Source: a virus. Taken from it: a DNA stretch of 22,748 nt. This document shows positions 3,672 through 9,810 of this stretch, piece after piece (position 1 is the first letter of the stretch; the number at the start of each line of letters is the position of its first letter). Location of the stretch: IMG/VR virus record IMGVR_UViG_3300025030_000430, positions 1 to 22,748 of that record; one strand, written 5' to 3'. The translations under genes and the position numbers were made by a program. The notes under the pieces are model-generated. The model did no database searches. It saw only the letters and a program-made list of their open reading frames with translations, and had not been told where the DNA came from.

Positions 3672-5918
3672 TCAAAGCACATCAGGAAGGCTGACGATAC
3701 GATAACACTTACCAGTGAAGTTCCATTCGGGCGGAACCTTGTCTTTAGCAACCTCCACCAGATACCCGCTATCAACAAGACTGCGGATGGTGTGGTCCAG
3801 TGCAAGCGTCTGCCCGAGCTTGTGCTTGACGAATGAGTTCGTTCGCTGCAAACGGATCTGGAGGTATTTCCGAGCGACCACACCAGACTTCCGCATCTCG
3901 TCCGGTATCTTGTATCCTGACGAGATGGGGTGTTGCAGGTAGTCGGCAAGCGTTGCCAGCAGCTTACGCTCGCGCACAATGTCACCGTCACCCACATCAC
4001 CGTCCGACATCTTACGTCGCATGATGGAAATATCGCGGTGAATGAGGTTGAGCGCCCATTCTGCGTGCTCCTCTGTCACAACAGGTGACGCAGGACAATC
4101 CGTGACCGCCATCAAGCCTGCAACCTTCAAAGTCTTCAGGTGAGCACGGTTCCACATCTGCCGCCAGGACTCGTCGTCCGTTGCGTTGATCTGCTGGTCG
4201 CAATGTTTGTCAAATGCGTCAAGCATGATCTGAGCTTCGCGGGACAATGCAACGTCCCTGAACCCGCCAGGCGGGCACTGCATGACAGCGTTAGCACCGT
4301 TCAACAGGATCTCATAAAGGTCACCCGGGATGGGAATACTGTTCGCAGTGTTGAATTCAGGCCTAAGACCAGCGTACTCGATCACAATGAAGCGGGACAT
4401 AAAACCATCCTGCATCATTGTATTCGTCAAAGACTCGTAGAACGTGTCAGGTGTTGTTTCTCCAATCATGCTGTACGCAACACCGTTCGTCGATGCGATG
4501 TTCTTTTCCTTGTCGCTGTATCCGATACCGCCAACAATGGTGCCCGCGCTGGACTTCTGATACAGGTTTGTCATCACGGTACGCAGAGACGACATCGGAC
4601 CCTCAGTGTGGTCATCTGACATCTTCCGCAGCTTGCGCCCCCATTCACCAGCCACATTGACAAAGCTGCCTGACTTGCTATTGCTGATCGCTTTCACCAG
4701 TGCTGGGCCAGATGCGTAGTCGCTAAAATCCACAAACTCCGAGAACGCAGTGGCACCCGAGTTCATCATAACGTGGGACAGCTTGCTGATGCTGCTGTGC
4801 ATTGCTTCTTTTCCGACTGCACTGCGAGCCACGAGCACGATGTAGAGGTTAAGACCGCTCCCGCTGATGTTGTAGGCTCGACCATACAAACCAGCGACAA
4901 GACCTAGGGCAGACACAATGGCAACCTCTCGCACGGGACGCGGTGCAAGCGCATAGAACCAGCGGGCAAGCTCACCCACATAGCCCGGAGGCCACTCCAG
5001 CGTCGATTCCGTTGCAACGGGGAGCAAGCGTTGCGGCGCAACCTGGGCCACAAGCTGCACAGCGTTGGCCTGGGCCATTACCACAGCAGCGTCCTCGCGT
5101 TGCTGCCGACCGCGAATCATCGCCAACGTGCGATCAAGATAACGATTATTCTTTTGTGCTTTGTCCCGTTGTCCAAGACCTGACAGTCTAAACAGGCGCC
5201 TGACTTGCTCGTTGGATTTAGAGTAGAAACACAGCATTGACAGCAACGACAAATCTGCCTCGGATTGGGATGGGTAGCCAATGCCTGCCCAGTCGCCTGT
5301 CCAGAGCTGCTTGAACTTGTCACCGTTCGAAGCGTCAGCCGCCTTCTGCCAGAGTTGTTCGTCGGTAATGGTTTCATCCTGCTCCACCAGTTCCACGTGA
5401 TTGGTCTGTGCAGCAGCACGAATCTCCGCCACCAGCAAGTCCAGCAGCTCTTGCCGCTGCTCAACTGGTTTTGCGAAGCCTGGAAGGGTGTCCCCTGTGC
5501 AGATAATGAAACGCTGCTGCGAATACACCTCCACACCGTCACGACGGCAACCCATGCCCACCTTACCTCGGATCCAGATGTGCAAGCCCCGCCCCGAGCG
5601 CGAGCGTTCCGTGTAACTGTCAAACGCTTGCACAATCTTCCAGAACCGATCAAGCTGCTCTGGTGGCGTGTTATCTTTGACGTCAAGGTCAATGCAGGTG
5701 AAGTCGTCGTCTTCCGACAACACGAAACCAATGCCCGCATCGTTGCCCCATTGGGCAGCAGTGAGCGCCGTGCTATACCAGTCTGACCAGTTGGAAGGGT
5801 TTGTGACGCTGGCACGGTGCCCGCTGGTGGTGAAAGGGCTCTTGTCCGGTGCAGCGATGCACCACTTGGGCACATACTTCAGGTCGTCGGGTAACTGTTC
5901 CCATTGCTGTGGAATCAT
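3672..5918 (-). CDS. Primase-polymerase (NrS-1-like PrimPol) fused to a DUF3987-like helicase/ATPase domain
   Basis: This 748-aa protein begins with a PrimPol catalytic domain (about 1-170). It has CIDLDV with Asp77 and Asp79, SGRGLHIW with His113, and GVEVYSQQRFIICTGD with Glu130 as the third acid. A segment at about 185-268 (KFKQLWTGDW...SEADLSLLSMLCFY...RDKAQKNNRYLDRTL) resembles the helicase-binding domain of the NrS-1 polymerase family. The remainder (about 300-740) resembles DUF3987 phage helicase-like domains, but its P-loop reads ARSAVGKE (364-371), lacking the first Gly and the final Ser/Thr. It would prime, and perhaps extend, DNA and couple this to unwinding at the replication fork. 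No separate DNA polymerase gene is visible in the window. Its ATG overlaps the HTH gene stop by four bases. Confidence 0.9.
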   Translation of the reverse strand: MIPQQWEQLPDDLKYVPKWCIAAPDKSPFTTSGHRASVTNPSNWSDWYSTALTAAQWGNDAGIGFVLSEDDDFTCIDLDVKDNTPPEQLDRFWKIVQAFDSYTERSRSGRGLHIWIRGKVGMGCRRDGVEVYSQQRFIICTGDTLPGFAKPVEQRQELLDLLVAEIRAAAQTNHVELVEQDETITDEQLWQKAADASNGDKFKQLWTGDWAGIGYPSQSEADLSLLSMLCFYSKSNEQVRRLFRLSGLGQRDKAQKNNRYLDRTLAMIRGRQQREDAAVVMAQANAVQLVAQVAPQRLLPVATESTLEWPPGYVGELARWFYALAPRPVREVAIVSALGLVAGLYGRAYNISGSGLNLYIVLVARSAVGKEAMHSSISKLSHVMMNSGATAFSEFVDFSDYASGPALVKAISNSKSGSFVNVAGEWGRKLRKMSDDHTEGPMSSLRTVMTNLYQKSSAGTIVGGIGYSDKEKNIASTNGVAYSMIGETTPDTFYESLTNTMMQDGFMSRFIVIEYAGLRPEFNTANSIPIPGDLYEILLNGANAVMQCPPGGFRDVALSREAQIMLDAFDKHCDQQINATDDESWRQMWNRAHLKTLKVAGLMAVTDCPASPVVTEEHAEWALNLIHRDISIMRRKMSDGDVGDGDIVRERKLLATLADYLQHPISSGYKIPDEMRKSGVVARKYLQIRLQRTNSFVKHKLGQTLALDHTIRSLVDSGYLVEVAKDKVPPEWNFTGKCYRIVSLPDVL

Positions 5919-6154
5919 GCAGTAGCTCCCCGACGAGCATCTAGAATGATCTTCCAGGCGTCCAAGTAATCCGAAACCTTGGACCGTTCCCAGATAAAGA
6001 TCTTGCCCTGGATGTCGATGGGGTCAGGGAGCTTACCCGTGCGGCGTGCGAGCAGAATGGTGGTTCGTGTCACGCCCAGCTTTTCCATAATCTCCGAGCT
6101 TGTGATATACCGCTCGTCAAATTCGCGCTGGGCGTCATTGACATTCGACGTCAT
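5915..6154 (-). CDS. Small helix-turn-helix DNA-binding protein (AlpA/excisionase-like)
   Basis: I chose the ATG at 6154 (79 aa), which has an AGGA site seven bases upstream. An in-frame ATG at 6220 would add 22 residues, but it would place the promoter-like element at 6187-6215 inside the gene. Residues about 16-68 (RYITSSEIMEKLGVTRTTIL, then RRTGKLPDPIDIQGKIFIWE) form a winged HTH of the AlpA/MerR type, where a helix pair is followed by a short wing and a 'W-x-x-S-K-V' helix. It is translationally coupled to the primase-helicase gene (ATGA). It could be a replication initiator accessory factor that binds the origin, or a regulator acting on the inverted repeat upstream of its own gene; both are inferences. 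Confidence 0.85.
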   Translation of the reverse strand: MTSNVNDAQREFDERYITSSEIMEKLGVTRTTILLARRTGKLPDPIDIQGKIFIWERSKVSDYLDAWKIILDARRGATA

Positions 6155-6221: not shown

Positions 6222-6854
6222 TCACGGGATCCATTTTGGTGCCCCGCGTTCCTTCCATTCCGAATACTCCGCCAGGGCTTTCATATAAGCCTCTTTCAGC
6301 TCGTTGTAACGCACACGATACGCTTCGCACTCAGCAAGCCATTCCTGATAACGAGTTCCTTTTTCCGCCTTAGCGGCGTGGGCAGCTTCATTCCTCGGCC
6401 GCCCACGCTTCGGGCGCTCAATGAGGACTTCTTTGTGTGTGCGTGCCCGCTCATAAAGGCAATGCAGCATGAACGAGTCCGCATCTTCTGCAAGGAAAGC
6501 GACGTCGTGCTGCCACCAGTCTTCACCATTGGTAATGATGTAGATTGCATTCGGTATCATTCCAAAGCTGCGATTGAAGTCCGCTGCGACAAGCTCATGG
6601 GGTTTGGAGCCTGTGTATGTGCTGCGCTTCATTGCCTGGTTTGTTGGAATGGTTGTGGGCAGCTTCCCCGTGAGCATTGCACGATGCACCATTGAGCGGA
6701 GGAATGGTGCCCCCGATGGCCACAGGCCTTCCGGGTAGCCCGCAGCAACAGCAGCATCCAAGAAGGCGCGTTCGTACTGTGCAAAGTTGTTCTTGAAGTA
6801 TTCAGACGGCAAGGACGCGCCGATGAGGTCAGCTGATATGGGTTCGAGTTGCAT
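6222..6854 (-). CDS. Unknown phage protein with AT-hook-like basic motif
   Basis: The start at 6854 (MQLEPISADLIGASLPSEYF, 210 aa) is preferred over a frame-extended start at 6911. A strong AGGAG sits seven bases upstream, and the 6911 start would overlap the predicted promoter. Residues about 1-150 look globular and mixed alpha/beta, with no family I recognise. Around residues 146-152 there is ERPKRGRPRN, a close match to the AT-hook core (R-G-R-P flanked by basic residues), followed by a Lys/Glu/Ala-rich helical, probably coiled-coil, segment (about 155-200). The motif, and its position as first gene next to an AT-rich non-coding region, suggest DNA binding at the origin or promoters. This is inference; GRPRK motifs can also be fortuitous. 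Confidence 0.8.
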   Translation of the reverse strand: MQLEPISADLIGASLPSEYFKNNFAQYERAFLDAAVAAGYPEGLWPSGAPFLRSMVHRAMLTGKLPTTIPTNQAMKRSTYTGSKPHELVAADFNRSFGMIPNAIYIITNGEDWWQHDVAFLAEDADSFMLHCLYERARTHKEVLIERPKRGRPRNEAAHAAKAEKGTRYQEWLAECEAYRVRYNELKEAYMKALAEYSEWKERGAPKWIP

Positions 6855-6882: not shown

Positions 6883-6911
6883 ATAATAGGTGGCAAACGG
6901 TCCCAGGGCAA
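6883..6911 (-). promoter_or_regulatory. Candidate leftward early promoter
   Basis: On the minus strand TTGCCC (6911-6906) and TATTAT (6888-6883) are separated by exactly 17 bases, matching consensus at 4/6 and 5/6. The first leftward gene begins 29 bases past the -10. This is the best sigma70-like match for starting the whole left operon. Confidence 0.5.
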
Positions 6912-6950: not shown

Positions 6951-6981
6951 GCTAACGCTAAAAGATATGAATTGCGTTAGC
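6951..6981. repeat. Inverted repeat GCTAACGC / GCGTTAGC
   Basis: Perfect 8-bp arms at 6951-6958 and 6974-6981 are separated by a 15-bp AT-rich spacer. The right arm runs into TTAGCTGCTAA, a second short near-palindrome containing an ATTAGC box. It has no T-tract, so it is more likely a protein-binding site than a terminator. Confidence 0.55.
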
Positions 6982-6998
6982 TGCTAATTTTCGGGGTA

Positions 6999-7047
6999 TA
7001 GGGTGGTGGCCTTTATTGGTGGGGTGGTCCCTCGAGCCACCACCCTA
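6999..7047. repeat. Large inverted repeat, 12-bp perfect arms (TAGGGTGGTGGC / GCCACCACCCTA)
   Basis: The arms are 6999-7010 and 7036-7047, with a 25-base loop that itself carries GGTGGGGTGGTCC. The stem is GC-rich within otherwise AT-rich DNA and would fold strongly in single-stranded DNA or RNA. Neither side has a T-run, arguing against a simple rho-independent terminator. Strand-initiation hairpin, structured RNA or a dimeric protein site are all possible. Confidence 0.6.
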
Positions 7048-7321
7048 CCTTTAAAGATAATCTACCTCTCTATTTAATAATTACTAATTTATATGTTGTT
7101 TATAGGGTATATATAGAGCACTGGTAAGGGTTTGCAGCGATTAGCATCAGCTGCTCTTTGGGTTCGTTATTATGCCGCTCGGCGAATAAATTGTACGGAT
7201 TCCGCAATGTGTGCAGAAAGTTGTGCAGCGTTACGGGTGGAACAGTGAAGCGATAATAATTTAGGCTCGGTGGTGCAAATTAGCCATCGGGCGGCGCGAA
7301 AAGATCTCGGTCCGGTGATTG

Positions 7322-7351
7322 TTGCTAATGGCGGAGCACTGTGGTCATAAT
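7322..7351 (+). promoter_or_regulatory. Possible rightward early promoter
   Basis: TTGCTA (7322-7327) and CATAAT (7346-7351) are separated by 18 bases, matching consensus at 4/6 and 5/6. The -35 overlaps an ATTAGC box, consistent with regulation through that motif. A weaker alternative, TTGTGC (7360) with TAAAAT (7384), lies closer to the gene and again overlaps an ATTAGC box. Confidence 0.35.
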
Positions 7352-7418
7352 AACGTGCGTTGTGCTCAAGCTGGTTCTGTGCTTAAAATTAGCCTTCCCA
7401 ATCGCATAGGAGTTAGAT

Positions 7419-9354: not shown

Positions 9355-9810
9355 GTGAGCGAATTAGCAGATACCTTGACGAAACAAGAGCGGGCCTTAC
9401 GGCAACGCTTCGTCGAGCAATATCTGGTCGATTATGACGCATATTCTGCGACCATTCGACTTGGATATCAGGAAGCCTTCGCGCAGCAGTACGCGAAGCA
9501 ATTCATGTCTGAACCCTACACGCTCAACCGCATTGCGGAGCGTGAGGCTGAAATGGGTATCCTCACGGAGCAGGACCAGCATCGCAAGAAAATCGTCGCT
9601 GGCCTGTACCGCGAAGCTCACAGCAGGTTCAACAGCGGCTCCGCCCGCGTTGCTGCACTTACACAGCTAGCCAAGATCATTGGCATTGAGGCTCCGGTGA
9701 AGACTGAGCAGGAAGTGAAGCTCACGACCGATAGTCCGCAACTGGGCCACCTGACCGTCGCGGAGATGGAAGAAATCAAGAAGAAGCTGTATGATCCGTC
9801 TGCCAAGTGA
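9355..9810 (+). CDS. terS: Terminase small subunit
   Basis: The 151-aa protein starts with GTG at 9355, with a CCGGAG site about eight bases upstream. The N-terminal half (TKQERALRQRFVEQYLVDYD...SATIRLGYQEAFAQQYAKQF) matches the HTH DNA-binding and helical pattern of small terminase subunits, and the middle is a coiled oligomerisation region. The C-terminus, QLGHLTVAEMEEIKKKLYD, resembles the tail segment of the Terminase_2-like group. It recognises the packaging site and hands DNA to the large subunit. Its last 20 bases overlap the terL start, typical of terS-terL pairs. Size is within the usual range. Confidence 0.88.
   Translation: MSELADTLTKQERALRQRFVEQYLVDYDAYSATIRLGYQEAFAQQYAKQFMSEPYTLNRIAEREAEMGILTEQDQHRKKIVAGLYREAHSRFNSGSARVAALTQLAKIIGIEAPVKTEQEVKLTTDSPQLGHLTVAEMEEIKKKLYDPSAK

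Follow-up and report, generated by a model that had tools for sequence, protein, structure and literature searches.

What does a short hexamer do that recurs within one non-coding region of a phage? The window analysed here is the whole 22,748-bp virus record IMGVR_UViG_3300025030_000430, a fragment, in which a 560-bp divergent non-coding region lies between a leftward operon and rightward genes. A sequence-only reading had taken the ATTAGC boxes clustered in this region as candidate origin iterons or a multi-site operator. The leftward genes that bear on the question were as follows.

3672..5918, minus strand: PrimPol primase-helicase (phrog_3022; NrS-1 HBD PF22763; DUF3987)
5915..6154, minus strand: 79-aa AlpA/HTH_17-like helix-turn-helix (HTH) protein (phrog_11967), the favoured candidate for binding the boxes
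6222..6854, minus strand: 210-aa fast-diverging protein with an AT-hook-like RGRPRN and a long C-terminal helix, the rival candidate binder

Farther left were genes for a Sak4-like protein, a ligase, ThyX and MazG. Rightward of the region were small genes, a pyrimidine-dimer glycosylase, a PDDEXK nuclease and terminase.

The five ATTAGC copies were found exactly where the sequence-only reading had placed them, and two GTTAGC variants are members of the same set.

6951..6956, minus strand: GTTAGC variant box, left arm of the inverted repeat GCTAACGC/GCGTTAGC
6976..6981, plus strand: GTTAGC variant box, right arm of the same repeat
6983..6988, minus strand: ATTAGC box 1, left cluster (hexamer search)
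7140..7145, plus strand: ATTAGC box 2, an invariant TTAGC adjoining the AT-rich core in 11/11 aligned phages
7279..7284, plus strand: ATTAGC box 3 (hexamer search)
7324..7329, minus strand: ATTAGC box 4 (hexamer search)
7388..7393, plus strand: ATTAGC box 5; shares bases with the -10-like element of the rightward promoter

The arms of GCTAACGC/GCGTTAGC, at 6951-6958 and 6974-6981, formed a perfect 8-bp inverted repeat (100% complementary). Outside 6951-7393 the entire record held a single further ATTAGC, at 9363. Dinucleotide shuffles of 6951-7393 gave a mean of 0.60 copies, instead of the roughly 0.2 that had been stated as the chance expectation, with P(>=5)=0.0007; after correction for any hexamer with at least two G/C, P was 0.013-0.027. 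Judged on the window alone the cluster is notable, not overwhelming, and a scan-corrected P of just 0.01-0.03 would leave some room for chance clustering in an AT-rich spacer. We accepted the cluster as real because it was conserved in the syntenic region of 11 relatives, collected with three queries (the right-hand 85-aa gene, the HTH and the primase). Each relative carried 3-8 ATTAGC clustered in its divergent non-coding region and few in the rest of its record, so the cluster was common to 12 phages including that of the window. Its recurrence in regions that have otherwise diverged refutes chance clustering, to which we assign practically no weight. The hexamer was scarce outside the region even in four complete-looking 47-48 kb genomes. 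Equal density elsewhere and absence from relatives, both named in advance as signs against the proposal, were thus not what we found. The pooled box was [AC]RTTAGC[AC] (mRTTAGCm), with no broader consensus.

The placement of the boxes varied among relatives. In L001/L002, L012 and L013 an additional gene separated the region from the 85-aa gene, and the boxes were located farther left. The counterpart of the promoter-proximal box at 7388 was missing in L001, L007, L009 and L011, and L008 carried a second box within the spacer. At L013:8171-8248 a 24-bp unit, GCGTGTAAAAATTAGCCTTGTTCA, which joins a -10-like element to a box, was present in three tandem copies before the first rightward gene. 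A nucleotide search of a phage collection with the left box cluster (60 nt) of one relative gave no matches.

The region contained further elements besides the boxes.

6883..6911, minus strand: promoter-like TTGCCC-17-TATTAT of the leftward operon (consensus scan)
6999..7047/7056: G-rich/C-rich inverted repeat TAGGGTGGTGGC / GCCACCACCCTA, 12 bp perfect with a 25-nt gap
7049..7119: AT-rich core, a putative unwinding element, running into conserved TTTATAGGGTATATATAGAGCACTGGTAAGGGTTTGCAGCG (alignment A1)
7340..7347, plus strand: TGTGGTCA, the putative PrimPol recognition word, within an invariant TGTGG-CA block
7360..7389, plus strand: promoter-like TTGTGC-18-TAAAAT, recognised by eye and absent from the consensus scan list, overlapped by box 5
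7361..7368, plus strand: TGTGCTCA, a related motif in a conserved TTG...TCAA block, containing the GTG core read by the pRN1-type HBD (PMC8076596)

The very AT-rich core reported at about 7049-7119 was present, and the reported overlap of two boxes with promoter-like elements held: box 4 (7324) lay in a scan-listed site beginning at 7322, and box 5 lay over the by-eye TAAAAT. In alignment A1 no part of the region was better conserved than the one that includes the TGTGG-CA at 7340; TGTGCTCA at 7361 could alternatively belong to a -35 element. The G-rich/C-rich repeat had the left boxes on one side and the AT-rich core on the other. Its position was partly conserved, and several relatives had similar GGTGG...CCACC arms at the same location; no consensus hairpin fold of the repeat was found across the relatives, and an Rfam search of the divergent region gave no matches.

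We next consider whether the boxes themselves belong to an origin or to promoters. Iteron origins of plasmids and phages have repeated short boxes by an AT-rich stretch and a replication gene. The short boxes here likewise adjoined an AT-rich stretch and a replication gene, and the AT-rich element at 7049-7119 was conserved with an invariant box to its right. Whereas iterons are direct repeats at regular intervals to which an initiator binds, the boxes were irregularly spaced and in both orientations, and no Rep/O-type initiator was identified. Small wHTH proteins of the P2-type Cox / AlpA kind use multi-copy short boxes in mixed orientation that overlap promoters. That arrangement is shared here in the small HTH protein and the many short mixed-orientation boxes over promoters, but no integrase was seen in the window and the HTH_17 match was weak. 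The boxes could accordingly be a multi-site operator only, through which the HTH or the 210-aa protein represses or activates the divergent promoters, without contributing to replication, whether or not the region also holds an origin. The overlap of box 5 with a -10-like element, the second spacer box of L008, the triple tandem -10 + box unit of L013, the lack of the promoter box in four relatives and the dyad formed by the left boxes upstream of the leftward promoter all fit this explanation. It accounts less well for the invariant box that adjoins the AT-rich core, away from both gene-proximal promoters, and for the restriction of box clusters to this one genome region, though other promoters must exist. 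We regard an exclusive operator role as quite possible, while leaning against it. Between iteron and operator the evidence points both ways, since a box over a -10-like element that is missing in some relatives is operator-like and the invariant core-side box is origin-like; the origin part of the sequence-only reading gained support from the strand of a second motif, the presence of that motif on one strand in the region, and GC skew.

This second motif was the word at 7340. No 8-mer was more over-represented than TGTGGTCA in the window and in four relatives; per 47 kb, about 20 copies lay on the plus strand versus 1 expected. Its copies in the window were the following.

Plus strand, TGTGGTCA: 844, 3330, 4607, 7340, 7792, 8724, 10390, 11540, 12762, 17107, 17731, 19699, 22499
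Minus strand, TGTGGTCA: 576, 1845, 12505, 17082

Together with TGTGGTTA it makes up TGTGGTYA. TGTGGTCA/TGTGGTTA were the top or near-top over-represented 8-mers in 18 genomes with this PrimPol primase, and in 69 further contigs with the primase they took the first two ranks among the 8-mers scored (467 versus 38 and 253 versus 29; 69/69 enriched). In control contigs with no detectable primase the excess of TGTGGTCA was weaker (68 versus 23.5), probably because some of them are fragments of the same phages. TGTGGTYA was about 10-fold above codon-shuffled nulls in the 15 genomes tested, in both gene orientations. Synonymous-codon shuffles left roughly 1-3 words against 4-33 observed, which ruled out codon usage or a Val-Val codon effect. 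In most genomes the plus-strand words were spaced significantly more evenly than at random, with a mean gap of about 1.8-2.8 kb, and the nonamer CTGTGGTCA was exclusively on the plus strand in the five genus genomes examined (12:0, 7:0, 9:0, 10:0 and 6:0).

The window primase offers a candidate reader of this word. Its PF22763 HBD scored above cut-off and PF09250 just below cut-off, and by phmmer it matched NrS-1-type primase chains 6k9a/6a9w with E about 5e-12. The order of a Prim-Pol domain followed by an HBD, which characterises HBD-containing AEP PrimPols of the NrS-1/pRN1 type, was found in it. NrS-1 PrimPol recognises TTTGGTTA and also GTGA/GTGG (PMC8718748), the NrS-1 genome has just two TTTGGTTA sites (PMC7102993), and these have been proposed as a possible origin of NrS-1 (PMC8718748, PMC7102993). 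The primase N-terminus and HBD are homologous in the two systems; TGTGGTTA is one base and TGTGGTCA two bases from TTTGGTTA, and the 8-nt words contain GTGG. The systems differ in that two TTTGGTTA there stand against some 18-57 TGTGGTYA per genome here, in that the words here show even spacing on the plus strand and a strand polarity near the region, and in that no box cluster is described for NrS-1 in the available parts of PMC8718748 and PMC7102993. With just two sites in NrS-1, the scattered word departs from the NrS-1 pattern, which counts against the parallel. The pRN1 HBD recognises GTG, and its docking model used GTGCTCA (PMC8076596). The helix-bundle domain of pRN1 ORF904 thus reads a GTG-containing single-stranded template, to which TGTGCTCA at 7361 corresponds here, but ORF904 is a remote homologue from an archaeal plasmid with a 3-nt requirement.

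These sequence comparisons point to TGTGGTYA as a putative PrimPol recognition site. Alternatively, TGTGGTYA could be a genome-wide word unrelated to the primase (Chi-like, a modification target or a nucleoid-protein site), its copy in the region being incidental. Recombination genes in the phages that carry it, such as that of the Sak4-like protein, would suit such a word, as would the enrichment of TGTGGTYA on the minus strand as well, which means that it is not purely a one-direction lagging-strand signal and which a pure single-fork model leaves unexplained. We consider this unlikely: the word tracked the primase through alpha-, beta- and gammaproteobacterial hosts, which disfavours a host-specific Chi-like site, it resembles a biochemically mapped PrimPol site, and it had a single orientation at the region, where its strand bias peaked. 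No earlier description of TGTGGTYA was found in the open literature searched, which returned unrelated papers only.

The strand of the word was then examined around the region, whose position was approximated in these tests as primase start + 1.4 kb. Over the 5 kb to the right, 13 lineages had 35 plus versus 6 minus words, and 0/5000 random rotations were as extreme. The strand-switch score pooled over the 13 lineages and 100 genome positions had its maximum exactly at the region, although for Greed, Vid5, Yut1, 83AMN and G012 individually the best switch point was not there. Such a switch in strand asymmetry is the expected mark of an origin that fires a rightward fork. Left of the region the word strands were near balance, which favours a start that is unidirectional or chiefly rightward over symmetric bidirectional forks. 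Within the divergent regions of 25 lineages, 14 exact words were on the plus strand and 0 on the minus strand, with about 0.43 expected per strand. The sequence-only reading had also named a GC-skew minimum elsewhere as a sign against the proposal. In three complete-looking relatives (G002, G003 and G004) the lowest cumulative GC skew fell at the region or just to its left, where gene direction also switches and confounds the signal. Together, these results suggested that the divergent region is a replication origin. In the open literature searched we found no described replication origin for Queuovirinae and related phages.

We put at about 0.55 the probability of the following reading, in which the divergent region is both a replication origin and a divergent promoter region. 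A DNA-binding protein encoded by the phage, with the 79-aa HTH as the likeliest candidate, would occupy the ATTAGC boxes and mark the origin; its binding would help to open the adjoining AT-rich core and would also modulate both divergent promoters. With the core single-stranded, the helix-bundle domain of PrimPol would read 5'-TGTGGTCA-3' at 7340 on the plus strand, a step modelled on NrS-1 PrimPol with TTTGGTTA or GTGG. On the rightward fork PrimPol would keep priming at further words on the lagging-strand template. Pfam models detected no DNA polymerase of family A or B in G002, G003, G004, G007, NP1 and MMDA13, so the genome may be copied by PrimPol itself, an unrecognised polymerase or host Pol III.

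Among the proteins that might bind the boxes, we take the 79-aa HTH as the most likely. It matched HTH_17 with E=0.003, below cut-off, and the phrog_66 excisionase/regulator family with E=5e-7; its profile had no significant relative among PDB sequences. An HTH upstream of the primase was detected in 53/56 surveyed contigs. HTHs of the Greed and L253 types had a different recognition helix and boxes other than TTARC, and this covariation fits the HTH as binder but is only suggestive, the cases being few and phylogenetically confounded. The HTH of NP1 counts against it, being 61% identical and yet found without ATTAGC, with only ATTAACAC. The binder could instead be the 210-aa AT-hook/coiled-coil protein. 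Its gene adjoins the region in all phages of the genus, its GRPR motif is invariant, and it diverges fast (29-63% identity versus 74-91% for the primase), as the boxes do between lineages. Within the genus, however, the protein diverges strongly while the box remains ATTAGC, and its similarity is no longer recognisable in NP1, with a box that differs at a single base. Binding of AT-hooks to the minor groove of AT-rich DNA has little specificity, which also argues against this protein. It had no fold match: a search of PDB and viral models with its AlphaFold model (pLDDT 88) returned no match, so its function cannot be read from the fold. We find it rather doubtful that this protein, and not the HTH, reads the boxes.

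The same arrangement extended beyond the genus. In more distant phages the region lay next to the primase gene and that of a small HTH, in most cases with a coiled-coil gene as well. NP1, MMDA13, HD01, R7M and Greed likewise had the primase followed by the HTH and then by a protein that was p210-like or unrelated but of comparable size, and in HD01 additional small genes lay within this order. Syntenic regions of distant phages often carried variant boxes: ATTAAC in L102 (eight copies) and in L205, L206 and L231, ATTAACAC three times in NP1, GGTTAAC/CGTTAACC in MMDA13 and L246, ATTAAT five times in R7M, AAAATAGG five to seven times in L101, and ATAGTG nine times in Greed. ATTAGC appeared again in L201/L258, which belong to other lineages, and several lineages had no clear box in the divergent region. 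When 26 non-genus regions were pooled, ATTAAC was the leading hexamer (59 versus 15 expected). In Sphingomonas phage MMDA13 a 12-bp imperfect direct repeat, TGCGTTAACCAT, is present in four copies within a divergent non-coding region of 1186 bp (PMC7472734). MMDA13 shares the gene neighbourhood, and its region is the counterpart of that in the window, but its box is GTTAAC, not ATTAGC; the available part of PMC7472734 gives the repeat no function and leaves TGTGGTCA unmentioned. ATTAGC would then be a lineage-specific version of a short box read by a phage DNA-binding protein.

We think it fairly probable that a phage PrimPol family, in dozens of lineages and diverse hosts, uses the 8-nt priming word TGTGGTYA, spread by selection at roughly regular 2-kb intervals with a polarity set by the origin, while the boxes are re-specified in each lineage. 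If so, the origin position and the lagging-strand priming programme could be read from sequence alone, with programmed priming sites visible as an evenly spaced genome-wide word. This would provide a candidate origin for Queuovirinae and related phages, and hundreds of phages would gain a primase recognition sequence open to testing by a simple oligonucleotide assay. The constant element (the primase word) and the fast-changing element (box and binder) would form a natural series for shifts in protein-DNA specificity. RHph_X3_2 (MW960033), whose terminase was 62.6% identical and whose primase only 25%, was without TGTGGTYA, as expected if the word goes with this primase. It had over-represented words of its own, CGACAAAG (23 versus 2.6 expected) and GGCGACAA, which may serve its different primase for priming.
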